Shown: positions 6,699 to 32,500 of the stretch, piece after piece | How positions within the stretch are numbered: position 1 is the stretch's first letter | How the letters are laid out: the number at the start of each line of letters is the position of its first letter | DNA from: a virus | Strand: one strand, 5' to 3' | Length of the DNA stretch: 41,946 bases | Virus record (IMG/VR): IMGVR_UViG_3300034102_001208 | Location: 1 to 41,946 of that record | Translations under genes and position numbers: made by a program | The notes under the pieces: generated by a model | What the model saw: only the letters and a program-made list of their open reading frames with translations | Databases searched by the model: none | Told to the model about the DNA's origin: nothing

Positions 6699-7277
6699 AT
6701 GTTTAAAGATCAAGCACATTCCGCCGACAGCACAACTGCTGGTTTGGTGGCCAAGACAGGTTTTGGCGAGTCTGCCAAGGGCGGCGGCGTGTTCCACGTC
6801 CAGTGCTTTGGCGAAGACGGCGTGCTGAAATGGGAAGATCAGATGCACAACCTCGTGGTCAACGTAGGTTTGCAGGACATGAACACCAAGTATTTTGCCG
6901 GTTCTACTTATACCGCTTCTTGGTTTTTGGGTTTGGTGACTGGCCCCGGCTCCGGCACAACTTACGCTGCTGCCGACACGCTGGCTTCGCACGCAGGCTG
7001 GACTGAGTTTACCAACTACTCTGGCAACCGCAAGGCGGTTACTTTCGGTACGGCTACCACCGCCGATCCTTCGGTAATCAGTAGCAGCGCTTCTCCTGCC
7101 CAGTTCAGCATCACTGGCGCTGGCGGTACGGTTGCGGGCGCTTTCCTGTGCAGTGTGAGTTCCGGCACTTCGGGCCTGCTGTTCTCGGAAGCTGACTTCC
7201 AGTCTCCCGGAGACCGCGTTGTGGTGTCCGGCGACACGTTGAACGTAACCTACACGTTCAGCCTCGACGCAGCTTGA
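6699..7277 (+). CDS. Beta-rich virion protein (192 residues)
   Basis: A GGAGCG site precedes ATG 6699. The N-terminal part has GGVFHVQCFGEDGVLKWED, then HNLVVNVGLQDMNTKYFAG and WFLGLVTGPGSGTTY; the C-terminal half is strand-rich, ending in SLDAA. 'GxFHVQCFxxDGxLKWEDxxHNLVVNxGLQDMN' is a phrase I recall from unnamed structural proteins of environmental phages. It sits between the small structural protein at 6282 and the repeat protein at 7290, so it probably belongs to the tail or fibre module. Confidence 0.7.
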   Translation: MFKDQAHSADSTTAGLVAKTGFGESAKGGGVFHVQCFGEDGVLKWEDQMHNLVVNVGLQDMNTKYFAGSTYTASWFLGLVTGPGSGTTYAAADTLASHAGWTEFTNYSGNRKAVTFGTATTADPSVISSSASPAQFSITGAGGTVAGAFLCSVSSGTSGLLFSEADFQSPGDRVVVSGDTLNVTYTFSLDAA

Positions 7278-8451: not shown

Positions 8452-11400
8452 ATGGCCCTTATAGTAAAAGACCGGGTAAAAGAAAGCAGCACCACAACAG
8501 GTACGGCGGACTTCACGCTGTTGGGCGCAGCTTCTGGGTTCCAGACGTTTGCGGTCATCGGCAACAGCAACACCACGTACTACGCGGCGGTCGATCAAGC
8601 CAATGGCACTTGGGAAGTTGGCGTCGGCACTTATTCCAGTACTGGCCCTACCCTGACGCGTGACACTGTATTGGAGTCGAGTAACTCGGGCAGCAAGGTC
8701 AATTTTGCCGCTGGTTCCAAAGAAGTGTTCTGTACTTACCCAGCAGAGCGGTCGGTGTATCTGGACGCAGCCGGTTCCGCCGTTTCTGTGCTGGACATCG
8801 GTACTCTGGGTGTCAGTACAGCTAACATCACCACGGCCAACATCACTGCGGGCACGATAACCACGACCCCTGCAAGCGGGAATGATCTGGTCAACAAGAC
8901 ATATGTTGACACACTTGCGGCATCAGGCATCCACTTTCACGAACCTGTCCGGGTTGAGTCCCCAATCAATTTAAACGCTACGTACAACAACGGTACTGCG
9001 GGGGTCGGGGCAACCTTGACCAACGCAGGCACTCAAGCCGCCTTGGTAATCGACGGCATCACTATGGTGGTGGCCGACCGCGTGCTGGTGTACCAGCAGA
9101 CAAACCAAACCCAAAACGGTGTGTATGTCGTCACGAGCGTTGGCTCAGGCTCAACAAACTGGGTGCTGACTCGCTCCGCCGACGCCAACACTTACGGCAT
9201 TACTGGCCCGAACACACTGAGTGAAGGCTCGACCTTTTTCGTCCAACAGGGCGTAACGGGCGCGGGCGAGAACTACACCTGCAACACCATCGGAACCATC
9301 ACGTTTGGCACAACCAACATCACCTTTGCGCAGATTTCTTCGGCGCAGATTTACTCTGCTGGTACGGGGCTGACTCTGAGCGGTACGCAGTTCAGCATCA
9401 CCAACGTCGGCACTGCTGGCACGTACGGCTCCGCTTCGTCTGTACCTGTGTTTTCTACCAATGCGCAGGGGCAGGTCACAAGCGCTACGCCTACGGCCAT
9501 CGCCATCGCTGCTGCAGCCGTCTCAGGCCTTGCGGCTTCCGCCACAACAGACACCACCAATGCGGCCAACATCACCAGCGGCACACTGCCATCCGGGCGG
9601 CTCAACGGTTCGTACACCGGGATCACCGGAGTTGGCACGCTGGCAGCGGGTACTTGGAACGCAAGCACCATTGCGGCTATTTACGGTGGCACAGGCCTGA
9701 CTTCCTTCGTACAAGGCGACCTGCTGTACGCCACGTCTTCCACGACTGTTGGGCGTTTGGCCGATGAGGTAGCAGGCAACGCACTGATCTCTGGCGGTGT
9801 GGGCGGTGATCCTGCTTGGGGCAAGATCGGCTTGGGCACCCACGTTTCGGGTACCCTTCCCGTGGGCAACGGCGGTACTGGGGCAACAACCCTGACGGGG
9901 TATGTGTTCGGCAACGGCACAGGGGCGTTCACCGCCTCTACCAGCATTCCCAACTCGGCCACGACAGCGACCAGCGCCAACACTGCAAACGCGATCGTTG
10001 CACGGGATGCCTCGGGTAACTTCACTGCGGGCACCATCACGGCGGCATTGAACGGCAATGCCAGCACGGCTACGACCGCTGCGAACGTCAACAACGGCAC
10101 ACTGTCCTTGGCAGTTTCGGGAACGGGCCTGTCTGGCTCCGCTACCTTCACAGCCAACCAGTCGGGCAACTCGACGTTCACAGTCGCTTCCAACGCGACC
10201 AACCTAAACACCGTCTCAACAATCGTTGCGCGTGATTCCTCGGGCAACTTTACCGCAGGCACTGTTACGGCCGCACTAAGTGGCAATGCCACTACGGCCA
10301 CGACTCTCCAAACCGCACGCAACATTGGCGGTGTGAGTTTCAACGGCTCCGCTGACATCAACCTCCCCGGTGTCAACACTGCAGGCAACCAGAACACCTC
10401 CGGCACGGCAGCAAACGTCACGGGCACAGTGGCCATTGCCAACGGAGGCACTGGCCAGACAACCGCCGCTGCAGCCATTACCGCCTTGACTGGAACTCAA
10501 ACCTCCGGCCAATATCTGCGCTCTAACGGAACGGCTGCGGCCCTGTCTGCGATTCAAGCAGCGGATGTTCCAACGCTAAATCAGAACACGACGGGCACAG
10601 CAGCAAACGTCACCGGCACGGTGGCTGTCGCTAACGGGGGCACTGGTGCGACTACAACTGGGGTAGCCAGAACCAACCTCGGGGCTACAACGCTCGGGGC
10701 AAATCTGTTCACGATAGCAAACGTAGCGGCAATCGCTTTCCCGCGATTCAACGCTGACAATACGGTGTCGTCACTGGATGCAGCAGCGTTCCGTACAGCT
10801 ATCGGCGCAGGTACTTCAAGCACCACCGGCACGGTCACATCGGTTGCCACATCGGGCACTGTCAGCGGGCTCACCCTTACCGGCGGCACGATCACCACAA
10901 CGGGCACAATTACTTTGGGCGGTACGCTGGCCGTCTTGCCTTCCAACTTTTCTAGCCAGACAGCGAACACAGTGCTTGCGGCCCCTAACGGGTCCGCTGG
11001 CGTTCCTACATTTCGGGCGATTGTTGCTGCGGATATTCCGACCCTAAACCAGAACACAACCGGCACGGCAGCAAACGTCACCGGCACGGTGGCTGTGGCC
11101 AACGGCGGTACAGGGGCAACCACAAACTCAGCGGCACGCACCAACTTGGGCGCAACAACCCTTGGCGGAAACCTGTTCACGCTTGCAAACGTGGCAGCGA
11201 TTGCGTTTCCAAGGTTCAACGCCGACAACACAATATCCTCACTGGACGCGGCGTCATTCCGTACGGCAATTGGTGCGGGTACATCAAGCACCACCGGCAC
11301 GGTTACAAGCGTGGGCGGCACGGGTACCGTGAGCGGGTTGAGCCTTTCCGGTACGGTGACAACCAGCGGCAACTTGACCTTGGGCGGCACACTGGCCGTT

Positions 11401-12417
11401 CTACCTTCTAACTTTGCAAGCCAGACAGCCAACACCTTCTTGGCCGCGCCAAACGGGTCTGCGGGCACACCCACATTCAGGGCGGTGGTTGCTGCGGATA
11501 TCCCAACGCTGAATCAGAACACCACCGGCACTGCAGCTATTTCGACGGCGGCAACGGTCACCACCTCTGCCACAGCAAGCGCATTCAAAGTCCCGTTTGC
11601 CAACACCACGGCGAGTACAACAGGCAACTACGGTCTGTTGCAAGACTCTGAGGCGACGTTTACATATAACCCAAGCACAAATACGCTGACGGTTGGTACA
11701 GTATCTGGGGCACTGAGCGGTAACGCAACTACATCAAGCAGTACTTCGGGAAATGCCGCTACAGCCACAACGCTTCAAACCGCACGCAATATCGGCGGGG
11801 TGAGTTTTAACGGGTCAGCAAACATTGACCTTCCCGGCGTTAACACTGCGGGTAACCAAAACACCTCGGGTTCAGCAGCTTCCTTGTCTGCCAACCTACC
11901 TGTCTCTCGTTTAAACAGCGGGACAGGCGCATCGTCATCTACGTTCTGGCGCGGTGACGGTGTTTGGGCTGCTGGCGTTTCTGGCCCCACCGGCCCTACG
12001 GGCCCCGCTGGCGGCCCCGGACCAACAGGCCCGACTGGAGGACTTGGACCCGTTGGACCCACCGGACCCACCGGACCGACTGGCGCAAGTGGAGCAACGG
12101 TTGTTAGAGCATGGGTCAATTTTAATGGTACGGGAACTGTGTCAATTAGGGCCTCTAGTAACGTATCTAGTGTCACAGATAACGGCGGCACAGGCGATTA
12201 CACAGTAAACTTCACAACTGCAATATCAGATGCAGACTATTCGGTAGTGTCCACCGTCACGCAGGTTAATGATTCAAACACTTCTGCGGGTAGTTTGCAA
12301 ATAAAATTGAGTGGCTCAACCCCGCAAATGTTTACTACTTCCGTGCGATTCCAAGCGGGATACGGGTCAAACTTTCCGGCAGACCCAATAACGGCTTGTG
12401 TTGCCATCTTCCGTTGA
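8452..12417 (+). CDS. Large tail fibre with collagen-like segment (1321 residues)
   Basis: The N-terminal about 100 residues ([40 protein letters not shown]) form a virion-attachment domain I recall in many phage fibres. The long middle is made of Gly/Thr/Asn/Ala repeats such as [22 protein letters not shown] and GNASTATT, typical of trimeric beta-helical shafts. It contains two direct copies of a block of 155-156 residues. At 1178-1216 lie 13 collagen-like Gly-X-Y triplets, mostly GPT. After this comes a C-terminal domain of about 105 residues starting [17 protein letters not shown] and ending AVIFR-like (CVAIFR), seen at the tips of other fibres. It probably binds the host surface. The last 300 bp are visibly more AT-rich than the shaft. 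Confidence 0.88.
10579..11511 (+). repeat. Two long direct repeats (468 and 465 bp) in the fibre shaft
   Basis: Copy 1 (10579-11046) and copy 2 (11047-11511) each begin with codons for [20 protein letters not shown] and run to ADIPTL. A third start of the same motif follows at 11512 but diverges after [10 protein letters not shown] second repeated phrase, [17 protein letters not shown], occurs near 10306 and 11770. Both periods are multiples of three. Confidence 0.85.
11983..12099 (+). repeat. Collagen-like Gly-X-Y tract in the fibre
   Basis: Thirty-nine codons encode 13 uninterrupted Gly-X-Y triplets: seven are GPT and nine have proline in the X position, with one (GGP) having proline in Y. 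Phage and bacterial collagen-like stretches form triple helices, which fits a trimeric fibre. The tract links the repeat shaft to the C-terminal tip domain. Confidence 0.9.
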
Positions 12418-12426
12418 AAGAGCATA

Positions 12427-12621
12427 ATGAACAATAAACTAATAATCTACCCCACACCCGAAGGTGGTGTGGCCGTCATCACCCCTGCACCCGAATGCAA
12501 CCTTACCATTGAAGAAATTGCCGCCAAGGATGTGCCTTCCGGTACGTCCTTTAAGATTGTGGATGTCACTGACGTTCCGGAAGACCGCACATTTCGCGCA
12601 GCATGGGAGTACGCAGAATGA
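12427..12621 (+). CDS. Small fibre-module protein (64 residues)
   Basis: A 64-residue protein starting 9 bp after the fibre stop, behind AAAGAG. It begins MNNKLIIYPTPEGGVAVITP and continues with IEEIAAKDVPSGTSFKIVDV and VPEDRTFRAAWEY. This 'KLIIYP...GGVAV..P......E.A.KDVP.G..Y.IVD...LP.DR.FR.AW' pattern is known to me from small proteins following fibre genes in phages, where they may assist fibre assembly. Its stop overlaps the next start (ATGA). The assembly role is inferred from position. Confidence 0.75.
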   Translation: MNNKLIIYPTPEGGVAVITPAPECNLTIEEIAAKDVPSGTSFKIVDVTDVPEDRTFRAAWEYAE

Positions 12622-12854
12622 TTACCATCAATTTTGACAAAGCAAAAGCCATTGCCCATCAAATCAGACGTGAGCTGCGGGCAAAAGAGTTTGGGCCATT
12701 AGACGAGCAAATTGTAAAGCAAATTCCCGGCACGTCCGTCCAAGATATTGAAGCAAAACGGCAGTTAATACGTGACAAGTATCACGTAATGCAAGAGCAA
12801 CTCAATGACGCAATAAGCATTGAGGAACTTAAAGCCAAACTTGGAAAAAATTAA
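12618..12854 (+). CDS. Small helical fibre-module protein (78 residues)
   Basis: Start placed at ATG 12618, overlapping the previous stop in ATGA; an upstream ATG at 12603 would lie deeper in the neighbour. The product begins MITINFDKAKAIAHQIRREL and is highly charged and helical to the end (HVMQEQLNDAISIEELKAKL). Pairs of this protein with the 64-residue one before it recur downstream of fibres, as I recall, resembling tail-fibre assembly chaperone pairs. It has no enzymatic motif. Codons here are more AT-rich than in the shaft gene. Confidence 0.72.
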   Translation: MITINFDKAKAIAHQIRRELRAKEFGPLDEQIVKQIPGTSVQDIEAKRQLIRDKYHVMQEQLNDAISIEELKAKLGKN

Positions 12855-12857
12855 AAT

Positions 12858-13403
12858 ATGGCACATCTCCCCATCTGGCACATGGGCCAAGTCCCAACTG
12901 ATATTTGTGACTTGGCAGCGGCGGAGTACATGCAAATTGCACCAAAAGACGCCGCCATGGGCATAGATGGTAAGGTGCTGTCCCATTCGAACCGTAACAC
13001 CACGGTACGTTTTGCTCAACCAGACCATTGGTTTGGGAACATGATGCGCGGCTTCGGGCTCAAAGGCAACAAAGAGTGCGGCTGGGATTTTGATATTACG
13101 GAACACGAGGCTGTTCAGTTTGCACACTACAGCGTGGGGCAGCACTACGACTGGCACATTGATAATTTCCCTTTGGCCGGGGCTCCCACAGACCGAAAGG
13201 TTACCGTTATTTGCCTGATGTCTGACCCTTCAGAATTTGAGGCCGGGGAGTTGCAACTTCGGCTGTATTCGGAGTACACTGCGCCTCTAGTAAAGGGCTC
13301 CGTCATTGCGTTTCCCTCTATTCTTGAGCATCGCGTAGTACCGGTAACTTCTGGCGTGCGAACCTCGGCAACCATGTGGCTAAGCGGCCCCCGCTTTAGG
13401 TAA
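12858..13403 (+). CDS. 2-oxoglutarate/Fe(II) oxygenase, prolyl-4-hydroxylase-like
   Basis: A 181-residue oxygenase. The iron site fits the family pattern Y-x2-G-x2-Y-x2-H-x-D exactly: Y91, G94, Y97, H100 and D102 ([12 protein letters not shown]). The distal iron ligand is H158 (LEHRV) and the 2-oxoglutarate-binding basic residue is R168 (GVRTSATMW), ten residues on. Enzymes of this group hydroxylate side chains, often proline, using oxygen and 2-oxoglutarate. The length is normal for a stand-alone catalytic domain. The gene follows two small fibre-module genes and precedes the second fibre by 8 bp, so a fibre protein is a plausible substrate; this is inference. Other possible substrates are host proteins or nucleic acid. 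It lacks a good ribosome binding site. Confidence 0.88.
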
Positions 13404-13411
13404 GGAACACC

Positions 13412-16009
13412 ATGAGCACGTTCTCACCATCGCTGCGTATTGAACTCATCACGACCGGCACACAAGCCGGTACTTGGGGCAATACCACCAACACCAACCT
13501 TGGTGGGCTGATTGAGTCCGCAATTGCGGGCTACACGTCTGTTTCCGTGCTTGCGACCGATCAAGCGCTAACCGCCCTCAACGGCGCTCCGGATGAGTCC
13601 CGCCACATGACGTTGGCGCTGACCGCGACAACAGGCGCAGCTTTCAACGTATACGCTCCTCCAGCCGAGAAGACCTACGTTATTTACAACGCCAGCGCAT
13701 ACGCTGCCACAATCTTTAACTCCACAGTTCTTGGCAATACGACTGCGGCAGGTTTGGGCGTGTCCATCCCCGCAGGCAAGACCGTAACGGTTTGGTCTGA
13801 CGGAACCAATTTCAGCTTCCAGAACGACCACCTGTCGAGCCTCACACTTGCCACCCCGCTGGCCGCAGCTTCTGGCGGTACGGGCCTTACAGCTTTGGGC
13901 GCTGGCGTAGCCACGTTCTTGGGAACCCCCAGCTCAGCCAATTTACGCGCTGCGGTGACAGACGAGACTGGCACGGGCGCTTTGGTGTTTGCCACCAGCC
14001 CGACACTGGTCACCCCCGCACTGGGCACACCTTCCAGCGGTACGCTCACAAACGCCACGGGCCTGCCTGTATCCACAGGCATTTCTGGTCTTGGTACAGG
14101 AGTTGCCACAGCACTTGCGGTGAACGTAGGTTCTGCAGGTTCTCCGGTAGTTAACGGTGGCGTGCTTGGCACGCCTTCCAGCGGTACGCTGACCAACGCC
14201 ACAGGATTGCCCGTATCCACAGGCATCTCTGGTCTCGGCACTGGCGTGGCTACGTTTCTTGCTACACCATCTTCTGCCAACTTAGCTGCCGCCGTTACGG
14301 GCGAGACGGGTTCCGGCGCTTTGGTGTTTGCTACTAGCCCCACGCTGGTTACACCTGCACTGGGTACACCGGCCAGCGGCGTAATGACCAACGTAACGGG
14401 TTTGCCGGTATCTACAGGCATTTCCGGCCTTGGCACTGGGGTAGCCACGGCGCTTGCGGTAAACGTCGGTTCTGCGGGTGCTCCTGTAGTCAACGGCGGC
14501 GTGCTCGGAACACCTTCAAGTGGTACGCTGACCAACGCAACAGGCCTGCCTGTCGCAACCGGCATTTCAGGTTTGGGTACAGGCGTAGCTACATTTCTTG
14601 CTACACCATCGTCTGATAATTTGCGCACTGCTGTGTCCGACGAGACCGGCACAGGTTCTTTGGTGTTTGCCACGAGCCCTACGCTGGTGACTCCTGCTTT
14701 GGGAACGCCATCTTCCGCCGTGCTGACTAACGCTACAGGTTTGCCAAACGCAGGCCTTGTCAACAGCGCAATCACAATTAACGGCAACAGTGTTTCGCTG
14801 GGCGGCTCTACCACGGTGACGGCCACGGCAGCCAACGCCTTGACCATTGGCACGGGTTTGACAGGTTCAAGCTACAACGGCTCTACTGCCGTAACAGTGG
14901 CCATTGACTCCACAGTGGCAACACTGTCTGGAACGCAGACGCTGACAAACAAAACACTGACCAGCCCAACACTGACCAGCCCAACACTGACCAGCCCAAC
15001 GCTGACCACGCCTGCCTTGGGAACTCCAGCAAGTGGTGTAATGACCAACGTAACAGGCCTGCCTGTATCTACGGGAATCTCCGGCTTCGGCACTGGCGTG
15101 GCTACTGCTTTGGCAGTCAACGTCGGCTCTGCAGGCGCTCCGGTGGTTAATGGAGGTGTGCTGGGTACACCCTCCAGTGGTACGCTGACCAACGCCACGG
15201 GGCTTCCAATTGTGGCAGGAACCACGGGCACGCTTTCTGTTGCGCGGGGCGGCACAGGCGTCACAACGTCTACAGGTACAGGCAGCGTGGTGTTGTCCAA
15301 CAGTCCGACCTTGGTGACGCCTGCTTTGGGTACGCCTGCAAGTGGCGTGATGACCAACGCTACGGGTCTGCCGATTGACGGCGGTACTACCGGCACTCTG
15401 CCAGCGGCCAGAGGCGGTACAGGTGTTACTTCTTCAACAGGTTCTGGCAACGTAGTGTTATCGGTTTCACCTACGTTCACGGGGACGCCAGCAGCGCCTA
15501 CGGCTTCGGTTAGCACCAATACAACTCAGCTTGCTACAACGGCTTTTGTACAGGCCGCGCTTCAAACACTGTATCCCGTTGGTTCGATTTACATCAACGC
15601 GGGTGTGACTACTAACCCAGCTACGCTGCTTGGCTTTGGTACTTGGACGGCTTTTGGCGCTGGCAGAGTCATGGTCGGCCTAAATGGCAGTGATGCTCTG
15701 TTTGATGCGCTTGAGGAAACTGGCGGTAGCAAAGATACTACGCTGGTTAGTCACACACATACCGCTACCTCTACTGTTAGTGATCCCGGCCACGTTCACG
15801 ACCTTACATTTAACTCCAACCTACAGACAGTAGGAACTGCAAGTATTGCGCTCGGCGATGACTTGATAACCAGCCCACTAAATGGGTTTATCGCCAGCGC
15901 CGTGACGGGCATTACAGTTGCTACAACAGTTGCGTCCGCAGGCTCCAGCGCCACCAACGCCAACCTCCAGCCGTACATCACTGTAGCGATGTGGAAGCGT
16001 ACTGCATGA
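13412..16009 (+). CDS. Second tail fibre with gp12-like metal-binding tip (865 residues)
   Basis: The N-terminus, [20 protein letters not shown] followed by [15 protein letters not shown], is an attachment domain seen in many phage fibres. The middle (about 150-690) repeats [20 protein letters not shown] and [16 protein letters not shown], then LTSPT units, a flexible or beta-helical shaft. Near 690-715 [16 protein letters not shown] resembles the helix before receptor-binding tips. The C-terminal part has [11 protein letters not shown], then [15 protein letters not shown] and two His-x-His pairs (H781/H783 and H794/H796), as in T4 gp12-type collar/needle domains where such pairs bind iron. 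It ends [14 protein letters not shown]. It is likely a receptor-binding fibre. Confidence 0.88.
14955..14999 (+). repeat. Three perfect 15-bp tandem repeats
   Basis: The unit CACTGACCAGCCCAA occurs three times without change, encoding repeated Leu-Thr-Ser-Pro-Thr, followed by a diverged fourth unit (LTTPA). It lies in the shaft of the second fibre and keeps the frame, so unit gain or loss would change shaft length only. Confidence 0.9.
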
Positions 16010-21931: not shown

Positions 21932-22339
21932 ATGCCGCTGCACCACGTACACCCCAGCACGCTGCCGACCATTTGGCCGATTGCGTTTCCGCTGTTGAAA
22001 AAAGCGATTGACCTTGACCCTGAGGCTTACAACCCGCAGTTCATTGAGTACAGCATCCGTACAGGGCGCGTACACCTGCTTGTGTGGGAAGAGCCGGAGG
22101 TGGGGATTACGGGCGCTTGCACGATTGAAATTATTGATGATCCGTTAGAACGTATTGCGCACGTCCACCTCATGGGGGGAAAAGGCGTTGTGAGGGAGCA
22201 CGTTTTTGACGAAGCCAAAGAGTTTATGCGCCGTTGCGGAGCAACAAAAGCCCAGTGCTGGGCCAAAGGCACGCTGGTCGATATGTACAAAAAAATGGGG
22301 TTGGAAAACACCCACCAAGTAATGAGGGTCAAGCTATGA
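21932..22339 (+). CDS. GNAT-like acyltransferase-fold protein (135 residues)
   Basis: The order of strands and helices looks like a short GNAT fold: IEYSIRTGRVHLLVWEEPEV, GITGACTIEIIDDP, AHVHLMGGKG, then a helix (HVFDEAKEFMRRCGATK), a strand (AQCWAKG) and YKKMGLENTHQVMRV, the last resembling the 'Y.K.GF' element of acetyltransferases. The acetyl-CoA-binding Q/R-x2-G-x-G/A loop is not convincing: only GGKG is seen. It is packed between two internal virion proteins with a 2-bp gap and a 4-bp overlap, so it may act on a virion protein or have only a structural role. Confidence 0.6.
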   Translation: MPLHHVHPSTLPTIWPIAFPLLKKAIDLDPEAYNPQFIEYSIRTGRVHLLVWEEPEVGITGACTIEIIDDPLERIAHVHLMGGKGVVREHVFDEAKEFMRRCGATKAQCWAKGTLVDMYKKMGLENTHQVMRVKL

Positions 22340-24858
22340 AAACGAGCTATTCACGCCGCGAACTTTATGCGTTTGGGGAGCCGCTGGGCGAAGCTGTTAC
22401 CCGCAAAGAAAGTGGCCGCACCATTTATGGTGGCGGCGGAAGTGGTGGCGGTGGCGGTGGCACAAGTACCCAAGTCACTGACTTGCCAGATTGGGCCAAA
22501 CCTACTGCGCAAAAACAGATGGGCCTTGCTGAGGCCGCGACCGACATTAACCAAAATCCCTTCCAATCTTTTGGCGGCATCAAAGATGCGTCGGGCAAGC
22601 AAGTAGGGTTTGACGCCAGCAAAGTAGTTGCTGGTATGGACAAGCTGCAACAAGATGCCTACAAGGGTGCTGGCAACCTGCAAACTTCCCCTCAATTGGG
22701 GATGGCCAGCGGCTTGATGGCGGCTGCGTCGCAGCGTGCACTGAACACAGGTTACCGCCCCGGTCAATTTCAAAATCAATACTATGGCTTTGACCCTTAC
22801 CAGTCTGGTGAGTTTCAAAACCAATTCCAAGCTCCGGGCCAATACCAGTCGGGGCAGTTTGGTGCGGATCGCGTGCAAGCGCAAGACTTACAGAACTACC
22901 AGATGCAGGGTCCTGCGGACGTTCGCTCGCAGGGGTACGATGCGGCTACTATGGGGACCGCGCAGACGCGGTTTGACCCAAACCTGCAAAACTTTCAGAT
23001 GCAGGGGCCTGCCGACGTGCGCTCGCAAGGGTACAACGCGGCCTCTATGCAGGCCGCGCAGTCGGGCTACAACCCCCAGCTTGAAACATTCCAAATGGGT
23101 CCTGCGGAGCGCGTAGCCGGTCAAGGGTATGACGCTGCATCAATGCAAGCTGCGCAGACACGCTTTGCGCCTGAGCTTGAGCGTTTCCAAATGGGCCCTG
23201 CGGAGCGCGTTGAGACGCAGTCTTTTGCACAGCCCGGCTCTGCCGATGCGTACATGTCGCCGTACATGCAAAGTGTGGTGGGCATCCAGCAACGCGAAGC
23301 GCAACGCGCCGCAGACATTGCGGGGACTCAGCGCGGAGCAGAGGCAGCAAAGTCAGGTGCGTTTGGCGGTAGCCGTCAAGCCATCATGGAAGCCGAAGCC
23401 GCCCGTAATCTGGCGCAGCAAAAAGGAGACATCCAAGCGACAGGCCTGCAGTCCGCATTTCAGCAAGCGCAGGGGCAGTTCAACACAGAGCAGCAGGCAC
23501 GCCTTGCTGCCCAGCAGTCAAACCAGCAAGCGGGGCTCACTACGGGGCAACAAAACCTTGCCGCCAATTTGGGCGTGCAGCAACTGGGCACACAAACCGG
23601 CCTGCAATCCGCCTTGGCCAACCTCAGTTCAGAGCAGCAAGCCAACGTACAAAACCAAGCGGCGCAGAACCAAGCACGCGGTATGAACGCGCAGCAAGCA
23701 ATGCAGGCTGCACTGTCTAACCAGCAAGCTGGGCTCACTGTTGGGCAGCAAAACCTTGCCTCGCAGCAAGCAACACAGCAACTTGGCGCGGGGCAAATTG
23801 GACTGCAGACATCGCTGGCTAACCTTACATCCGCGCAACAAGCGGCTGTCCAAAACCAAGCGGCGCAGAACCAAGCGATGGGCATGAATGCCCAGCAAGC
23901 AATGCAAGCAGCGCTGGCCAACCAGCAAGCAGGACTTACCACGGGTCAGCAAAACTTATCTGCGAACCTAAGCACGCAACAACTTGGCACGCAGACAGGC
24001 CTGCAAACCGCTCTGGCTAACCTCAGTTCGGAACAGCAAGCCAACGTCCAAAATCAAGCAGCGCAAAACCAAGCACGGGGCATGAACGCTCAACAAGCGT
24101 TGCAAGCGGCGTTGGCCAACCAGCAATCGGGGCTTACTACAGGCCAGCAAAACCTTGCGGCCAACCTCGGCATTCAGCAACTTGGCGCTGGTCAGAACAT
24201 GCAAGCACAACTGGCCAACCAGCAGCAGAACATTGAAGCACAGCGTCTGGGCGAGCAGTCGCGTCAGTTTGGTGCAGGTCAAGGCTTGACCGCTGCGCAG
24301 TTGCAGGCTCAGTACGGGATGTCGGCCCAACAAGCCGAAGAAGCATCGCGTCAGTTTTCATCCAGCCAAGCAGCGCAGCAAGCAGCGCAAGGCGCACAGT
24401 ATGGTCAAGCCGCCCAGCAGTTGGGCGAGCAATCACGCCAGTACGGCGCAGGTCTGGGCCTTCAGGGTTTGCAGGCGGCTATGACTGGCGCAGGCCAGTT
24501 GGGCCAGCTTGGTAGCCAGCAGTTCGGCCAGCAAAAAGACATCCTCGGCTTGCAGAACCAGTTTGGCGGTCAACAGCAAGCGCAGCAGCAAGCGCTCATG
24601 AACGCCGAAGCACAGAACTTTGCAGCGCAGCAGCGCTACCCGTACCAAAATTTGGAGTTCATGTCGAACATCCTGCGCGGCGCGCCTATGGGGACGGTAC
24701 AGTCTATGTACCAAGCACAACCGTCGGTTGCAAGTCAAGTGGCGGGCGCAGGCACATCTTTGGCGGGCGCGTACATGATGGGCGGCGGCAAGTTTGCAAA
24801 AGGCGGTAGAGTTAGAAAAGCAGCTGGTTTGAACGAGCTGGCCCTGTCCAAAATCTGA
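22336..24858 (+). CDS. Gln/Ala-rich repetitive internal virion protein (840 residues)
   Basis: The start is ATG 22336, overlapping the previous stop in ATGA; the frame is open to 22234, but that would overlap the GNAT-like gene by over 100 bp. After a Gly-rich linker (GGGGSGGGGGG) come four 32-residue repeats (FQMQGPADVRSQGYDAA type), then three 66-67-residue repeats rich in Gln, Asn and Ala (NQQAGLTTGQQNLAANLG) and a Gln/Ala helix to about 800. The end is YMMGGGKFAKGGRVRKAAGL. The helical, repetitive design fits a coiled rod, tape-measure-like or ejected protein. It is rich in Gln and poor in Cys. Function inferred. Confidence 0.72.
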   Translation: MKTSYSRRELYAFGEPLGEAVTRKESGRTIYGGGGSGGGGGGTSTQVTDLPDWAKPTAQKQMGLAEAATDINQNPFQSFGGIKDASGKQVGFDASKVVAGMDKLQQDAYKGAGNLQTSPQLGMASGLMAAASQRALNTGYRPGQFQNQYYGFDPYQSGEFQNQFQAPGQYQSGQFGADRVQAQDLQNYQMQGPADVRSQGYDAATMGTAQTRFDPNLQNFQMQGPADVRSQGYNAASMQAAQSGYNPQLETFQMGPAERVAGQGYDAASMQAAQTRFAPELERFQMGPAERVETQSFAQPGSADAYMSPYMQSVVGIQQREAQRAADIAGTQRGAEAAKSGAFGGSRQAIMEAEAARNLAQQKGDIQATGLQSAFQQAQGQFNTEQQARLAAQQSNQQAGLTTGQQNLAANLGVQQLGTQTGLQSALANLSSEQQANVQNQAAQNQARGMNAQQAMQAALSNQQAGLTVGQQNLASQQATQQLGAGQIGLQTSLANLTSAQQAAVQNQAAQNQAMGMNAQQAMQAALANQQAGLTTGQQNLSANLSTQQLGTQTGLQTALANLSSEQQANVQNQAAQNQARGMNAQQALQAALANQQSGLTTGQQNLAANLGIQQLGAGQNMQAQLANQQQNIEAQRLGEQSRQFGAGQGLTAAQLQAQYGMSAQQAEEASRQFSSSQAAQQAAQGAQYGQAAQQLGEQSRQYGAGLGLQGLQAAMTGAGQLGQLGSQQFGQQKDILGLQNQFGGQQQAQQQALMNAEAQNFAAQQRYPYQNLEFMSNILRGAPMGTVQSMYQAQPSVASQVAGAGTSLAGAYMMGGGKFAKGGRVRKAAGLNELALSKI
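22891..23274 (+). repeat. Four 96-bp tandem repeats
   Basis: Equivalent codons (Q/E-x-F/Y-Q-M) lie at 22891, 22987, 23083 and 23179, a strict 96-bp step (32 residues). Copies 1-2 have QMQGPADVRSQGY, copies 3-4 QMGPAERV. The DNA has diverged between copies while the protein pattern is kept. Confidence 0.9.
23521..24219 (+). repeat. Three full and one partial 198-201-bp repeats
   Basis: Units beginning with codons for NQQ(A/S)GLT start at 23521, 23719, 23920 and 24118, giving steps of 198, 201 and 198 bp (66, 67, 66 residues). Each full unit holds the phrases VQNQAAQNQA and MNAQQA. The fourth copy breaks off after about 34 residues. Confidence 0.9.
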
Positions 24859-24866
24859 GGTAGACC

Positions 24867-26546
24867 ATGATCGACGTCAACAAAATTACCTCCACGCTGG
24901 CCAAGTTGCCGGACCAGCAGCTGCAGCAGTACGCGCAGATGCACAAGAGCGACCCGTACATCATGGCGCTGGCCATGTCGGAGTCCAACCGCCGCAAAGA
25001 AATGCGTGCTGCCGGTCAGGGCGGTCAAGGTGCGCAGGAGCAGCCCAAGGTGGTTGACCAGATGGTGGCGGAGATGGCTCCCCAGCAGTTGCCAGAAGAC
25101 CAAGGCATTGGACAGCTCCCCGCAGGCGACATGAACTTTGCCGATGGCGGCATTATTGCGTTTGCTGGTGGCGGGGATGTGGAGCGGTATCAGTTTGGGG
25201 GTATGCCGCCCCGCACCAGCATGATGGGCGACATCCCCGGTTTTGTGGCGGGAACGCCAATCTTTCAGACGCAGCCCGGCGTCCCGGAAGAAGAACCGTT
25301 TTTCCGCAGATTGTTACGGGAGCGCACAGAAGCAGTAGAGGCGCAACGTGTGCAAGAAGCGCGTGCGCGTGCGATGAAAGGGCAGCCACTGTCGCCCGAA
25401 GATCAGGCCCGTATTGCCAACGCCGATAAAACCAAGGCCGTTGCGGATACGTCTGCGCAAAATCTGGCACAGTTTGATGCCGCGTCCAACCTTTACATGA
25501 CCGAGCGGGCAAACAAGCAAGCTGCCGCTGCAGCTCCCAAAGACGCGCCTGCAGCCCCCAAACCCACTGTCGATCCTACCCGCCGTGTTGTTCCCGGTGC
25601 AGGGCCTGCTGCTCCAATGGCAGGTCCAAAAGCTACGCCCGACACAGGCCCAACAGACATTGACGCACTACAGCAAAAGTACTTTGGCCAAATTGACCAA
25701 GAAGTTGGCGGGTTGCGCAACGCCCGTGCGGGGCTAGTTGCAGGCATTAAAGACTTGACCGAAAAGAACTTGGCCGCAACTAGAGCCGATATTGAAAAGC
25801 GTGGCGACGTGTACAAAGGCCGTGAAGAACGGCTGGCCAAACAGGAAAAAGGTTTGGAAGGCATGGGCGACAAGTACATGGGACTGGCGCTGCTGCAAGC
25901 AGGCGCGGCCATGATGACAACCCCCGGAGGACTGGGCGTTGCGCTGGGCAAAGGCGTACAGGTCGGCAGTGAACGCTATGTCGCAGGTTTGGACAAGATT
26001 GAGGCAGCCAAGTCCAAGTTTGCCGAGGCCCGCGATCGTCTGGACGACTTGCGCATCAACCGCGACGACATGAACAATAAAGACATTCGTGCAGCGGAGA
26101 AAGAAGCACGCGAGTCGGAACTCAAAGGCAAAGAAATGCTGTACAACGGCTTGGTGTCCGATCTGGGAATCAAGCAGAAAAACGTCTCAGCCATTTTTAC
26201 TGCGGCAGCAGGCGCGTTGGAAACCGACAAGAGGATTGCTTCTTCAGAAAAAATTGCCGCAGGGCAAGAGCGCGGGGCAAACGTCCGTGCTGGGCGCAAC
26301 CAACAGCTCGAAACACTCCAAGCTGTTATCAAGGACCCCACTCTTGCAGCGGCCTACAAGGCAATGCACGGGAAGAACGAAGACGTTATGGGTCAGTACA
26401 ACGAGTTCCTGAAAGCAAACCCAACTCTGGCAATGGACCCGCAAAAAGCCATGTCGCAGTTTTTGATGAGTAAATCTGTTTTCTCTCAATTGGGTGCAGC
26501 CCCTGTAACTGAAAAAGCTACTGGACCTGTTCGCAAACAGCCTTAA
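24867..26546 (+). CDS. Internal virion protein (559 residues)
   Basis: The N-terminal helical part (INKITST-like VNKITSTLAKLPDQQLQQYA) is followed by PDQQ/Gln-rich sequence and three Gly-Gly motifs: FADGGII (91-97), FAGGGDV (99-105) and YQFGGM (108-113). A Pro/Ala linker lies near 210-260. Long charged coiled coils extend from about 265 (QQKYFGQIDQEVGGLRNARA) to about 500, with a short hydrophobic Ala/Gly segment near 345-370 (GLALLQAGAAMMTTPGGLGV). It lies between two large internal proteins, with an 8-bp gap upstream. Likely loaded into the head or ejected with DNA. No enzyme motif found. Confidence 0.72.
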   Translation: MIDVNKITSTLAKLPDQQLQQYAQMHKSDPYIMALAMSESNRRKEMRAAGQGGQGAQEQPKVVDQMVAEMAPQQLPEDQGIGQLPAGDMNFADGGIIAFAGGGDVERYQFGGMPPRTSMMGDIPGFVAGTPIFQTQPGVPEEEPFFRRLLRERTEAVEAQRVQEARARAMKGQPLSPEDQARIANADKTKAVADTSAQNLAQFDAASNLYMTERANKQAAAAAPKDAPAAPKPTVDPTRRVVPGAGPAAPMAGPKATPDTGPTDIDALQQKYFGQIDQEVGGLRNARAGLVAGIKDLTEKNLAATRADIEKRGDVYKGREERLAKQEKGLEGMGDKYMGLALLQAGAAMMTTPGGLGVALGKGVQVGSERYVAGLDKIEAAKSKFAEARDRLDDLRINRDDMNNKDIRAAEKEARESELKGKEMLYNGLVSDLGIKQKNVSAIFTAAAGALETDKRIASSEKIAAGQERGANVRAGRNQQLETLQAVIKDPTLAAAYKAMHGKNEDVMGQYNEFLKANPTLAMDPQKAMSQFLMSKSVFSQLGAAPVTEKATGPVRKQP

Positions 26547-26557
26547 AATGCGGGTAC

Positions 26558-26576
26558 GCGCCCACCTTACGGGCGC
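26558..26576 (+). other. GC hairpin before the giant gene
   Basis: GCGCCC (26558-26563) pairs with GGGCGC (26571-26576) around a 7-base loop, 22 bp before ATG 26598. No T run follows, so it is not a classic terminator. It may protect the mRNA end or tune translation of the 2251-residue protein; no clear ribosome binding site lies between it and the start (only GGAA at 26585-26588). Confidence 0.4.
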
Positions 26577-26597
26577 ACACAATTCGGAACACTTGCC

Positions 26598-29500
26598 ATG
26601 GCCAAATATCTGACCCTACCTGACGGTTCTTCGTTTGAAATGAAGGAGGGGCAGAGCCCCGCCGAAGCCATGCAAGCGGCAATCCAGCTGTACCCCGATG
26701 CTTTTGGCTTTGGGGCAACAGAAGCGCCGGAAAAGAAAGGCTCCGGGTTGGGCGACATTGCTCGCTCATTTGGTCTGGGGGCGGTAGGTTCGGCGGGGGC
26801 AATTGCTAGTGCGGCTGGAGCGGACAACGCTGCCGCCCGTGCCCTTGGCCGAGCCGGTGAAAGCCTTCAAGAAGGTCTGAGTGCAAGCCGCAAAGCCGAG
26901 CTGCAAGCGCAAGCCGAGCGCATGAAAAAAGCCGAGGAGTCCGGCTCCACCCTTGAGGAAATCAAAGCTGGTGCGCTGAACGTGCTGGAAGCACCATTGC
27001 AGTCTGCCGCGCAGGCCGTAGGCTCCTTTGCGCCACTCATTCCCACGTTGTTCTTAGCCAAGCCGTTGGCGGCTTTAGGGCTTGGTGCACGCGCCATCAT
27101 GGGTGTTCGTGGTGCTATCGGGGGAGCACAGGGTGCCGGTGCAGTCAAGCAAAATATCTACGACACAGTGCTGGAAGCTGAAAAAGCGGACGGCAAAACG
27201 GACGAGCAAGCTGCCGCTGCCGCCTCGCGGGCACAGTCCTACATCAGCGAAAACGCAGACCAGATTCTTCTGGGCACCGGTCTTGGTGTTGCGGCAGGTA
27301 CTAGCGGTGTTGAACGCATTTTGCCCGGCGGAGTGCGCGGGGCTGCAAGCAAGACGCAAGAAGCACTCGCCAAGCGTCTGGGGGCGCGTACAGCGTCAGG
27401 TATCACTACGGCCGCAGCCGAGATGCCACTGGAAGGTCTGCAAGGCGGGCAAGAGCGACTGGCTGCCAACCTTGCACTGCAACGCACAGGCCGTGACGTA
27501 GATGCGTTTACCGGCGTAGCAGGTCAAGCCACGCAAGAAGCATTGACGGGCGCGTTTGGGGCGGGACCCATCGGCGCACTTGTACCAGATCGCCGTGCAG
27601 AAATTGCAGAAAAAGAGCGTCAGCAAAAAGAGCAAGCCGACGCTGTGGCCGCAGCCGAAGCTGCCAAGAACACCCCTGAAGCCCTGCGCCAGCTTGACAC
27701 CGACTTCCGCACAGCGGATCAGCAACTTCAAGCCCTGAACGCGCAGATCAAAGAAGTTAATCCCGGAAAACTAAAAAAGAAAGCCACGCCGGAAGAAAAG
27801 CTGGCCCACGCACAGGCTTCGGAAACACACGACGCACTCAAAGCCCAGCGCGATGAGCTGTTGACCACCTACAAACCACTGCGCCAAGAGTTCATGCAGC
27901 GCAAAGGAGCCCTCGACAAACTGTACGAAGACCAGCAAGCGCAGATCGAGGGGCAGACTGCGCAAGATCAGACCGCCGCAAAGCTGCCGTTGCCCTCGGA
28001 CATCCCCGGCGCACAACCGTTCCAGTTGTCAGACACCTCGCGTTTGATGAACGACTACGACACCATGCGCGGCCAAGTGTCCGCGTTGGAGCAGCAACTG
28101 GCTGCGGGCCCTGATCTGGATACCCAGACACAACTGACGCAGCAGCGCGGGCAGCTCATGGCGCGTATGAACGAGATGGCTCCGGTCATTGAGGAACGTG
28201 GCGGGGTCACCGACACCGAGCAAGACTTTGCCAAGAAAATGGCTGCGGCCGAAAAAGAACGCCTGCGCCTGCTGGAGATTGGGGACTTTGATGCTGCGGC
28301 AAACCAAGCCGAGAAAGTCCGTGACCTGCAAACACGCGCTCCCTTCTTGCAAGAGCTGAACGACTTCCGCACAAAAGCAGGGCAGAACCGTGCGTTGTTT
28401 GCAGAAGCTCCGGCCCCAGCAGAAACAAAGACAGACGCCCAACTCAAACAGCAAACGCTGCAAGAAGAGCAGCAACGTGCGTTGTACGGCCCAGAGTCGA
28501 AGAAGGCATCGGCAGAGCAAGCTTTTGGGGAAGCTGAAACGGGGCCTCGCGGTCAATTGGAGCTGGCCACGCCCATGCCTGAGCCTACCGCACAGACAGG
28601 CATCAAACCGAAACAGTTGGAGCTGGTTGAGGCTACCAAGGCTAAGGTAGCTACTGCGCAAACCGCTTTGACAGACGCGGCTAAGACCAAAGACACGCAG
28701 GCAATCTACGCCGCTGCCGACACGCTAAATCAAGCGCAAAGCGAAGGCTCTCGGGCGCAAGACGAAGTGGGCCGGGGTATGTTCCGCCCGGTTGTGTTGG
28801 ACTTGTTCAGCCCCGCCAACATCATGAACACCGCCATTCAGAACGGCGACACCAAGCTCATCAACGACATCGCTACCCATGCCGATACTACGGCGCTGCG
28901 GGCAGCCCTCAACCAGAACCTCAGTGAGCGCGAGAAGCTGGTCAACGTGTTGGAGAACCGTGCGGGTGTTGGTGGTGATGAAAAAGCCATCGACCCCCGT
29001 ACCGGCGAGCCCGGCGAGAGGCTCAAGAGCGTCAAGCGCGAACGCGCTGACTTGTTCTCTCAGTTGTACGATACCCGGCAGCAAGCGCTGTTTAAGAACG
29101 GCACGTATCCTGACCAAGATTTACAAACCCTCTACGACAAAGGTGGCCCCGCCGCAGTTGAGTACGAGCGCGTCATGCAAGACGTTGAGGACCTGTCCAA
29201 GAAAGTCACGACCAAGCAAGGCAACGCCAAGAAGTCTTTGTACGAGCAGCTCATTGATTTGGCTGCGCAGCACTCTGCGTTGGTGGCGCAACTGGAGTCT
29301 GGTGTTGCTACACCCAACCTGCGCGAAAAAACTGCTGCACTGCAAGCCAAGGTAGGTAAGGGAGAAGCCCCGGCTGAGCGCCAGATGGATGCCAAGGAAA
29401 AGTTTGACCTCCAGCGCCGCATCGACACGCTGGTTAACAAGTACCGCCTGACCGAAGGCCAGATTGCCCCCATCCGCGAGCAGATCACCAAGTTGTACAA

Positions 29501-32500
29501 CAGCCTGTACAAGACCACGCCACTTGAGAAGACCAGCACCATTGCTGAACGCCGCGCCCGTGAGTCTGATGAAGCTGCTAAAGGGCCGAAAGCTAAGTCC
29601 CGTACCGCCGCTACTGCTACACGTATTGCCAAGGGCGATGTGCGCAAAGAAGCGGAGACCTCGCAGAAGATGCGCGATCTGGCGCGTGATTTGGGCACAG
29701 CGGAGGCAGAGTACAAAAAGTTTGAGAAGGCCCAGACCGATCGTTACACCAAGCTGAAAGAAAAGTACGGCAGGTCTGATCCTGCTGTGGCCGAGTTCCA
29801 GCGCGGCATGGCTGAACAGTTGACAGACAAAGCAATTGAGCTGGGTAAGACTACGCCGGAGTACAAGGCCACGCTGAAAGAGCAGATTGAGTACGTCAAA
29901 GGCGCACTGGCCCAGAGCAAGCAGACAATTCCAAATAAGCGCACAGGGCAAGTTACGCGCAAGCAGTCGGCAGCCCCCAAACGCCTTGTCAGTTCTTCAC
30001 CTGAAAGTAAAGAGCAGTCTGCTGCCGAAGACAAAGCAGTACGGCTTCGTCGCGGCTCACTCAAAGATATGCAAGAGGGTATCGATTCTGAAAAGTACGG
30101 CACTGCCTACCGTTTGAAAGAGAGCGAGTCCGACGTCACTGTTGATGCTGCCGAAGCGCAGACAGTCATCGACGGTTTAAACCTGCCCAAGAACGTCAAG
30201 TTTGTCTACGCCCCTACAGCACGGCAAGTACCCGTAAAACTGCTGAACATGTTGGCCAAAGACAAAGTAGACGTAGGCGATGTTCGCGGAGCGGTGTTCC
30301 CCGATGGTACGGTGCTGGTGATTGGCGAAAACCACGACAGCGTAGTAGCAGTCGAGGAAACGATTGCGCACGAGCTGATCGGCCACTATGGCGTGGATAC
30401 GCTGATCGGTATGGAGCGCCTGAATGAGTTTGCCAAGAACACGGACGTGATTGCTCTAGCTGAAAAGCTCGGCGGTAAAGCGCTTGTTTCCGAAGTCATG
30501 GGCACTGTCCGTGCAAATGCCGACATGGGTCGCAGCGAAGAAGTGCAAAAACTGCAAGCCCTGCGCGAGATTATTGCGCACACAGAAGAAGCGAAGATCA
30601 CCGCTTCGTTCCGCGATAAGGCCGCGCAGTGGCTCAAAGAGTTGGTGGGTATGGTGCGTGCAGGGCTGCGTGAAAAAGGTCTTATAAATTTGGCCAAGCT
30701 GTCCACATCGGACGTGTTTTACATCCTCAAGAAATCGCGCAAAGCGTTTGAGAACAAGACGATCGGGGCGTACCGCGATGCCGCAGGCAAAACGGCTTTC
30801 CGCTTGCGCAAGCAAGAAAGCGAGTACGGTGTCGGCCGTCCTGCCGGTGTGATGGACACACTGATTGGCAACATGCTTGGTCTTGCAGGCCGCGTGCAGT
30901 TCATTGATCAGTACGCAGCTTTGGAAGCGGCGATTAAGAAAGGTTTGAGCGAGGGGGTCATTCGCGCTTTGGAAGCGACCAACATCAACTACCTGCTTCG
31001 TTTTGGCCAGCAGCGCAGCCAGTTTGCCGGTCAGTTCCTGACCAACGGCCCGGTCAAGGCAGAGATTACGCGCAAGGACGGCGGCACTGAGACGGTGTAC
31101 CGCAGCACCAAGGGTGTGTCGATGGTGGACGTGGCCAAGAAGCTCAACGAGGCAAAGATTGGTAACGATACCGAGCAAGAAGACATGTTTACGCTGTACG
31201 TGGCGGGTGAGCGTGCGAAGCAGGTTGGTTGGGATAAGCTGAACTACTCCGACCCTGCCGACGCAAAAGCCAAGTACACAAAAATGATGGCGCGGTTAAA
31301 CAGCAGCGACACTGCTAAGACCGCGTTTGAAGAAGCTGCCAAGCTGTACCAACAGTACAACGCAGGCTTGTTGGACTTCCTTGTCGGTACGGGCGCACTG
31401 ACAGAAAAGAAAGCTGCTGAACTTAAAGCAATCAGCTACGTCCCGTTCTACCGCATCAACGGCAACGGTGAAGTACAGTTGATGGTGGACAAAGAGCGCC
31501 CAGTGCGGATTGCCAACATCAAAGACCAGCCGCAACTCAAGGAGTTGGTTGGCGGCAACACAGAGATCATGCCGATCTTTACCAGCGCTGCGCAAAACAC
31601 GTTCATGATTACCGGCATGGGCTTGCGTAACCAAGCAGTGAAGGAGACCTCCTTCATGCTGCAAAAGCTCGGCATTGCCAGCCGCGTATCGGCAGGTAAC
31701 GGGCCGACAGGGGCCAACGTGGTGCGCTTCTTCAAGAAGGGTGAGCCGCACTACGCCCTGATCGACACCGATGCTTACGGCATCCCGGCTGATCTGATCG
31801 TGCGCGGTATGGAGGGCATCAAGACCACGATGCCTGCGGCCATCAAGCTGATGGGCATCCCTGCCAACATCTTGCGCTCGTTTGTTGTGCGCAACCCCAC
31901 CTACGCTGTGCGCCAGATCATCCGCGATCCGCTCAACGCTTGGCTGACAACCGGCACTGACGCTGTGCCCGTGCTCTCGTCTATGAAAGAGCTGGCCAGT
32001 ATGGTCGCCGGGCGCAGTGAAGCTGAGCGCAAGCTCATGGAGACAGGCGCAATCAGCAGCAACGTCTACAGCGGCGACGACCAAGACATGGCCAAGTTCC
32101 TTAAAGACATGTCGGCAGGCAAGTCTGGTTGGGACAAAGCCACCGCGATGTTGGACACGTTTGCGCTGCAAGGCGATGCGGCTACACGCGCTGTGATCTA
32201 CAAGGACTCGCTGGCCAAAGGCATGTCTGAGCAAGAGGCACTGCTGCGCACACTGGAGTCCATGAACTTCAGCCGCCGGGGTGTATCGCCAAGCATGATG
32301 GCGCTGTCCACGCTCATTCCGTTCTTCAACGCACAGGTGCAGGGTCTGGACGTCATCTACCGCGCCTTCAAAGGCGACATGCCTTACAGCCAGCAGCTCG
32401 ACATTCGTGGAAAGATGGCGCGTCGTGGTTTTATGCTGGCCGCAGGCACGATCGCCTACGCCGCGTTGATGGGCGACGATGAGGCGTACAAACGCGCCAA

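Follow-up and report, generated by a model that had tools for sequence, protein, structure and literature searches.

The DNA described here (the window) is the whole of a 41,946-base virus record (IMG/VR record IMGVR_UViG_3300034102_001208) from a podovirus-like lineage of about 60-65 kb. Its structural region carries, on one strand and in this order, a tail fibre gene (fibre 1) with a collagen-like tract, two small open reading frames (ORFs), a gene for a prolyl-hydroxylase-like oxygenase dependent on 2-oxoglutarate (2OG) and Fe(II), and a second fibre gene (fibre 2). Here, we describe the coupling between the tract and the oxygenase across related phages, and weigh the reading that the phage probably modifies its own collagen. 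The features concerned are the following (aa, amino acids).

6699-7277, plus strand: upstream virion gene, 192 aa (phrog_8123, E 6e-21), used as a neutral marker for collecting related phages
8452-12417, plus strand: tail fibre 1, 1321 aa, carrying the collagen-like tract towards its C-terminal end (matches PHROG tail fibre families, E 6e-30 at best)
11974-12099, plus strand: collagen-like tract, 14 Gly-X-Y triplets, 42 aa, fibre residues 1175-1216 (assessed by shuffles)
12016-12018, plus strand: codon of Pro1189, the sole Y-position proline of the tract (G-G-P-G-P-T) and the predicted target residue, from its X-Pro-Gly context and the Y-proline enrichment
12100-12414, plus strand: fibre 1 head at the C terminus, 105 aa (residues 1212-1284 match the tail fibre family phrog_11355)
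12427-12621, plus strand: short ORF of 64 aa, perhaps a fibre assembly protein, judged by position
12603-12854, plus strand: short ORF of 83 aa, perhaps a chaperone of fibre assembly (phrog_20196, function not known, E 3e-5)
12858-13403, plus strand: 2OG-Fe(II) oxygenase, prolyl-hydroxylase-like, 181 aa (Pfam, PHROG and structural model)
13412-16009, plus strand: second fibre, 865 aa, with a Gp10 C-terminal domain (PF21939, E 1.2e-23)

The oxygenase thus lies between two fibre genes, as an earlier reading of the window (the original prediction) had it, with the two small ORFs standing between it and fibre 1; the gaps of 3 nt before and 8 nt after it are consistent with a single transcript. Homologues of the 64-aa ORF occur in other loci, both with and without a linked oxygenase, and in several other loci the small-gene place is occupied by Phage_tail_APC chaperones (PF16778). 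The original prediction had also placed a tract of 13 triplets, starting at 11983, in the upstream fibre: the tract is there, with nine prolines at X and one at Y as claimed, but 14 triplets follow one another without a break. Shuffling the fibre 5000 times gave runs of at most 8 triplets (mean longest 3.3), none reaching 13, so that the unbroken Gly-X-Y run lies beyond chance and the tract can be called collagen-like. The Pfam Collagen model matches residues 1175-1214 (E 5.4e-5) at 23.3 bits, the shortness of the tract keeping it under the cut-off of 27.2.

The oxygenase matches Pfam 2OG-FeII_Oxy_3 (PF13640; E 2.8e-15, 57.5 bits against a cut-off of 27) and the PHROG 61 profile (E 4.2e-31), a family whose likeness to the human prolyl hydroxylase EGLN3 has already been published (PMC12774648). 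The motif Y91-x2-G-x2-Y97-x2-H100-x-D102, with distal H158 and R168, is present as had been claimed; Y91, Y97, H100, D102, H158 and R168 are invariant across 39 aligned homologues, and H100, D102 and H158 make up the HxD...H facial triad of the 2OG-Fe(II) superfamily. An AlphaFold2 model (pLDDT 91, pTM 0.88) has the double-stranded beta-helix fold (Foldseek E 5e-13 to PPHD), with Pseudomonas putida PPHD in complex with EF-Tu (4iw3) first among the matches, followed by Dictyostelium PHD and then by Chlamydomonas prolyl 4-hydroxylase (P4H), human PHD2 and PBCV-1 vCPH, with PiuC interspersed; the top folds include 4iw3, 4j25 and 6t8m. A PDB profile search places PKHD-type enzymes first, then viral, algal and Bacillus P4Hs, and the NCBIfam equivalog cut-off for PKHD-type hydroxylases (YbiX/PiuC) is not reached (55.5 bits against 143). 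Collagen P4Hs bind the 5-carboxylate of 2OG by a Lys about +10 from the distal His, Arg at this place being the PHD/PPHD/PKHD state. In the window enzyme the expected 2OG-binding residue is Arg168, at +10 from the distal His, and not Lys, so that closest fold and 2OG site are both of PHD/PPHD type, while the adjacent tract offers GGPG, a linked candidate X-Pro-Gly substrate as for a collagen-type P4H. Pairwise ratios of nonsynonymous to synonymous substitution (dN/dS) of 0.05-0.12 among close relatives indicate that the gene is retained for function. By alignment, substitution ratios and model, then, the active site is intact, the gene is under purifying selection and the fold is prolyl-hydroxylase-like; catalysis is predicted.

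In an IMG/VR scan all 24 of the closest oxygenases (57-77% identity) were found with a Gly-X-Y fibre 0-1.4 kb upstream. Because these loci had been picked by their oxygenase, further cohorts were built by other genes, using as queries the 192-aa gene that precedes the fibre, the homologue of that gene in locus L005 and the fibre N terminus; the neighbour-gene relatives comprised the best 80 of 386 and the best 80 of 580, from which near-copies were removed by k-mer overlap and in which at least 5 kb of downstream sequence was required. Oxygenases were detected with two profiles built here, which other 2OG families could escape. Among the loci fetched by neighbouring genes, tract and oxygenase were both present in 6 and both absent in 53, with none discordant (Fisher p 2e-8), which is the outcome of the survey of related phages for co-occurrence that had originally been proposed. 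Two apparent exceptions proved to be artefacts: in L011 the gene lies past the distance cut, and L321, the sole discordant locus under a 3.5 kb downstream cut, is a contig that ends inside the fibre. Phages lacking the pair retain the same fibre, with an N terminus up to 91% identical to that of the window (L208). On a tree of the neighbouring gene both traits change 11 times and agree in 71 of 71 rows, and the independent pairs on well-supported (starred) branches agree in 5 of 5 cases, a sign test (p 0.06) that falls short of 0.05 by itself because five pairs are too few. None of 26 long contigs (30-68 kb) without a close oxygenase contains DNA coding for GPTGxxGPTG on either strand, although two of these tract-less contigs carry a more distant oxygenase, whereas all four with the oxygenase have it. 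Tract and oxygenase are genetically coupled in these phages and are gained and lost together; the pairing draws strong support from the closest relatives, the neighbour-fetched cohort, the tree, the long contigs and the motif search that follows.

Linked tracts also differ in composition. A Y-position proline is found in 17 of 18 non-redundant linked tracts and in 14 of 44 unlinked GPT tracts (p 9e-6), with a frequency per triplet of 0.132 against 0.014, or about nine-fold. In linked tracts it stands in G[S/A/G]P-GPT and hence in an X-Pro-Gly setting, the triplet that collagen P4H prefers to recognize (PMC8968730). A search of IMG/VR was then made for sequences coding for GPTG[S etc.]PGPTG and GPTGAPGPTG, without recourse to the enzyme; the counts given here are among the matches listed. 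An oxygenase-family ORF lies within 2 kb downstream of 52 of 111 non-redundant motif tracts and of 10 of 75 motif-less GPT tracts, and within 4 kb downstream of 43 of 74 (58%) and 4 of 43 (9%), respectively (p 8e-8). These oxygenases share the strand of the motif in 45 of 47 cases and, where both flanks exist, lie downstream of the motif in 22 cases and upstream in 4. As the motif was derived from linked tracts, and some of their contigs recur in the motif cohort, the test was repeated minus the window's oxygenase clade, giving 23 of 54 against 4 of 43 at 4 kb (p 2.5e-4) and 22 of 81 against 10 of 75 at 2 kb (p 0.046). The motif thus predicts the oxygenase, and the original caveat that prolines stand mostly at X, unlike the usual animal target, is right as a count but has lost much of its force, as the Y-proline in G[S/A/G]PGPT marks the linked tracts.

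Since tract and enzyme are gained and lost together in related phages, this lake-type phage is likely to modify the collagen that it makes, as animals do. We consider it probable that the oxygenase is a phage enzyme of the prolyl-hydroxylase type with the collagen-like tract of the co-encoded fibre as its main substrate, the likeliest site being the Y-proline in X-Pro-Gly. In the proposed model, the fibre would be produced alongside its chaperone and the oxygenase, which, using O2, Fe(II) and 2-oxoglutarate, would hydroxylate the Y-proline (here GGP-G) on the unfolded chain; the chains would trimerize after hydroxylation, and the hydroxyproline would add stability to the short triple-helical stalk, rich in GPT, that immediately precedes the receptor-binding head. 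Hydroxyproline in the X position is reported to stabilize Gly-Pro-Thr peptides (Bann and Bachinger), a point not used as evidence here. Hydroxyproline in the Y position stabilizes the triple helix (PMC4518226); the helix here is GPT-rich and, at 14 triplets, short, so that one to five such sites on each chain could determine how stable the stalk is. Alternatively, the mark may tune flexibility or recognition; we infer the reaction, its target residue and a benefit in stability rather than recognition.

A strict requirement for the Y-proline was considered and rejected on two grounds. L252 and L270 are near-identical phages whose tracts, of 22 and 13 triplets, represent a natural length variant, the shorter lacking the sole Y-proline of the longer; as the L270 enzyme is identical to that of L252, the Y-proline site is usual and not obligatory. 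In addition, deeper relatives of the oxygenase stand beside tracts with X-proline or lysine.

Several explanations compete with tract hydroxylation. Tract, head, chaperone and oxygenase could move as one recombining fibre module in which the oxygenase has a role unrelated to the tract: the genes are adjacent, the tracts may share descent, given their similar starts, and 2OG oxygenases are carried as cargo in the fibre regions of related phages. A hitchhiking block would carry its middle too, whereas here the middle varies and both ends persist. The heads of 20 linked fibres fall into 10 mutually unrelated families (BLAST E 1e-3), and the interval between tract and oxygenase consists of the fibre head and 0-3 small genes (gap 0-1403 nt), while the linked oxygenases are at least 48% identical to one another. 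Simple hitchhiking is thus unlikely, the more so as no tract without the gene occurs within the lineage and the motif predicts oxygenases beyond the close clade; either the tract depends on the enzyme, or some other common reason preserves the two ends. Rather unlikely, too, is a fibre that serves as substrate through a different residue, be it the X-proline of GPT, a Thr or Ser or a residue of the head, with the Y-proline enrichment as a by-product. X-proline and Thr do dominate the tract, L270 has X-proline only, and the Bacillus anthracis P4H hydroxylates PPG peptides at the prolines of both positions (cited in PMC8968730), but it is the Y-proline that separates linked from unlinked tracts, and the heads are unrelated.

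We regard hydroxylation of a host protein (e.g. EF-Tu or a ribosomal protein), which would aid takeover of the cell in the manner of PPHD, as very unlikely: although no structure matches better than P. putida PPHD in complex with EF-Tu, such a role leaves the strict co-occurrence with collagen tracts unexplained and sits poorly with a gene placed in the structural region and flanked by fibres. A role as an ordinary auxiliary metabolic gene, acting on a small molecule or nucleic acid, is highly improbable; PHROG 61 is filed under moron/auxiliary metabolic gene and a part in DNA repair has been attributed to phage oxygenases related to it (PMC11288001), but the fold is closest to protein prolyl hydroxylases and the linkage to the tract would again be unaccounted for.

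A number of observations weigh against hydroxylation of the tract at the Y-proline. The loci are of common ancestry, so that the p values overstate their independence. In the plain GPT sample, a Y-proline of any context does not predict the oxygenase (p 0.09-1, among the matches listed), which places the signal in the specific motif, and most phage GPT tracts among those matches are without such an oxygenase. The linked tract of L270 has no Y-proline despite an intact enzyme, although the identical enzyme of L252 has a longer tract with one Y-proline, and the deeper relatives L095, L103 and L139 adjoin tracts with X-proline or Lys and no Y-proline. The recombinant collagen domain of the prophage protein EPclA melts at 42 °C (PMC3368898), so that hydroxylation is not generally required; given that phage collagen can be stable without the modification, the benefit may hinge on the shortness of the tract or on temperature. 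Finally, most PHROG 61 relatives examined (cyanophages and pelagiphages) have no Gly-X-Y fibre nearby, and neither has the sister enzyme in L198.

These last points bear on scope. On the oxygenase tree, Gly-X-Y lies upstream in one large group (26 of 30 rows) and downstream, in fibres that are mostly GPQ, in a second clade apart from it (11 of 13 rows), while the remaining relatives on the tree have no Gly-X-Y within 4 kb. The link to a tract is accordingly a property of particular clades and not of all phage 2OG oxygenases. The original prediction had named, as an argument against itself, homologues lying mostly in phages without Gly-X-Y tracts; this describes the wider PHROG 61 family but not the clade of the window gene. 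The second clade (L057-L076) accompanies giant GPQ-repeat collagen fibres, with hundreds of triplets and almost no Y-proline, 2-4 kb downstream. Collagen-like fibres with repeated GxKGQKGEVG (Lys at X and Y) and a related oxygenase close downstream are found in L095, L100, L139 and L145, where lysine hydroxylation is conceivable. The sister oxygenase in L198 (12233-13617), about 47% identical, overlaps by one base the end of a 284-aa Gly-rich adhesin-like ORF that has no Pro-rich Gly-X-Y tract.

Among isolated phages (50,697 records) the closest oxygenases are about 30-40% identical and mostly from cyanophages, with no isolate of the window's clade, and none of 7 relatives in bacterial genomes has a nearby Gly-X-Y tract, which leaves no cultured cellular counterpart. 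The window's capsid protein is 71% identical to those of Planktothrix phage Pag-Yong1 and Synechococcus phage MinM2 and 61-62% identical to those of pelagiphages HTVC023P and HTVC027P. These two pelagiphages and phage 023Pt_psg01, found by their capsid protein, have no GPT-type Gly-X-Y tract, though distant 2OG oxygenases lie in their structural region. In 023Pt_psg01 and HTVC023P (L442 and L444), one of them isolated on Pelagibacter, the oxygenases (profile E 3e-60) follow Gly-rich structural proteins and provide material for testing the enzyme family. A wider rule prompted by L198, L442 and L444, in which oxygenases would accompany any Gly-rich adhesin, was rejected (19 of 48 distant oxygenases against 15 of 49 oxygenase-free fibre regions, p 0.4). 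Elsewhere in the window, 22234-33353 holds three large ORFs (874, 559 and 2251 aa) without a PHROG match at E 0.01, which are probably virion proteins.

Viral collagen hydroxylases and phage collagen fibres are already known. The viral collagen prolyl hydroxylase (vCPH) of PBCV-1 (PDB 5c5t) is virus-encoded and has the same fold (TM 0.74; profile match E 1.1e-10), but belongs to an algal virus and is about 20% identical to the window oxygenase. It binds 2OG by Lys where the window oxygenase has Arg and, to our knowledge, is not tied to one adjacent fibre gene. Its peptide substrates have been characterized (Eriksson 1999, cited in PMC9301287). Mimivirus L230, a collagen lysyl hydroxylase/glycosyltransferase, modifies the virus's own collagen-like proteins (Luther 2011, cited in PMC8968730), as predicted for the window phage, but acts on lysine, in a giant virus of amoebae and in an unrelated gene context. 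The P4H of B. anthracis (PDB 3itq, 5hv0), found with the collagen-like BclA, is a prokaryotic prolyl hydroxylase (profile match E 5e-9) that hydroxylates collagen-like peptides (Schnicker and Dey 2016, cited in PMC8968730) but is a cellular gene, with both X and Y prolines hydroxylated in vitro (PMC8968730). P. putida PPHD (PDB 4iw3), the closest solved fold (E 5e-13, TM 0.77), is also cellular, was crystallized with its EF-Tu partner and is 21% identical. PHROG 61 is the family of the window gene, but most members examined, in marine cyanophages, lack a nearby Gly-X-Y fibre. EPclA of Escherichia coli prophages has a collagen triple helix in a trimeric fibre stalk, as predicted for the window fibre, but its tract is longer and its helix forms recombinantly without any hydroxylase (PMC3368898).

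Literature text searches, with subscription journals outside their coverage, returned no report of a tailed-phage hydroxylase dedicated to its own collagen tract; the analysis establishes a motif and the genetic coupling of a tailed-phage oxygenase, presumed to be catalytic, to the tract of its own fibre. On balance, and with somewhat less assurance than for the window itself, we favour a widespread group of tailed phages with a dedicated module, a collagen-like stalk and its own prolyl hydroxylase targeting the Y-proline in GPT-G[S/A/G]P-GPT, in which hydroxyproline-stabilized phage collagen would have been acquired many times as a unit with interchangeable receptor-binding heads. Phage 2OG oxygenases are abundant, and we know of no substrate for them; the pairing offers one clade a specific and cheaply testable one. 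Of the viral use of prolyl 4-hydroxylase, a study of viral genes writes that it 'remains cryptic' (PMC9301287). If the proposed model is true, the enzyme and its short GGPGPT/GSPGPT target could provide a compact means of producing hydroxylated collagen recombinantly in bacteria, and hydroxyproline-stabilized collagen would be part of phage fibre assembly, beyond animals, algal viruses and spores.
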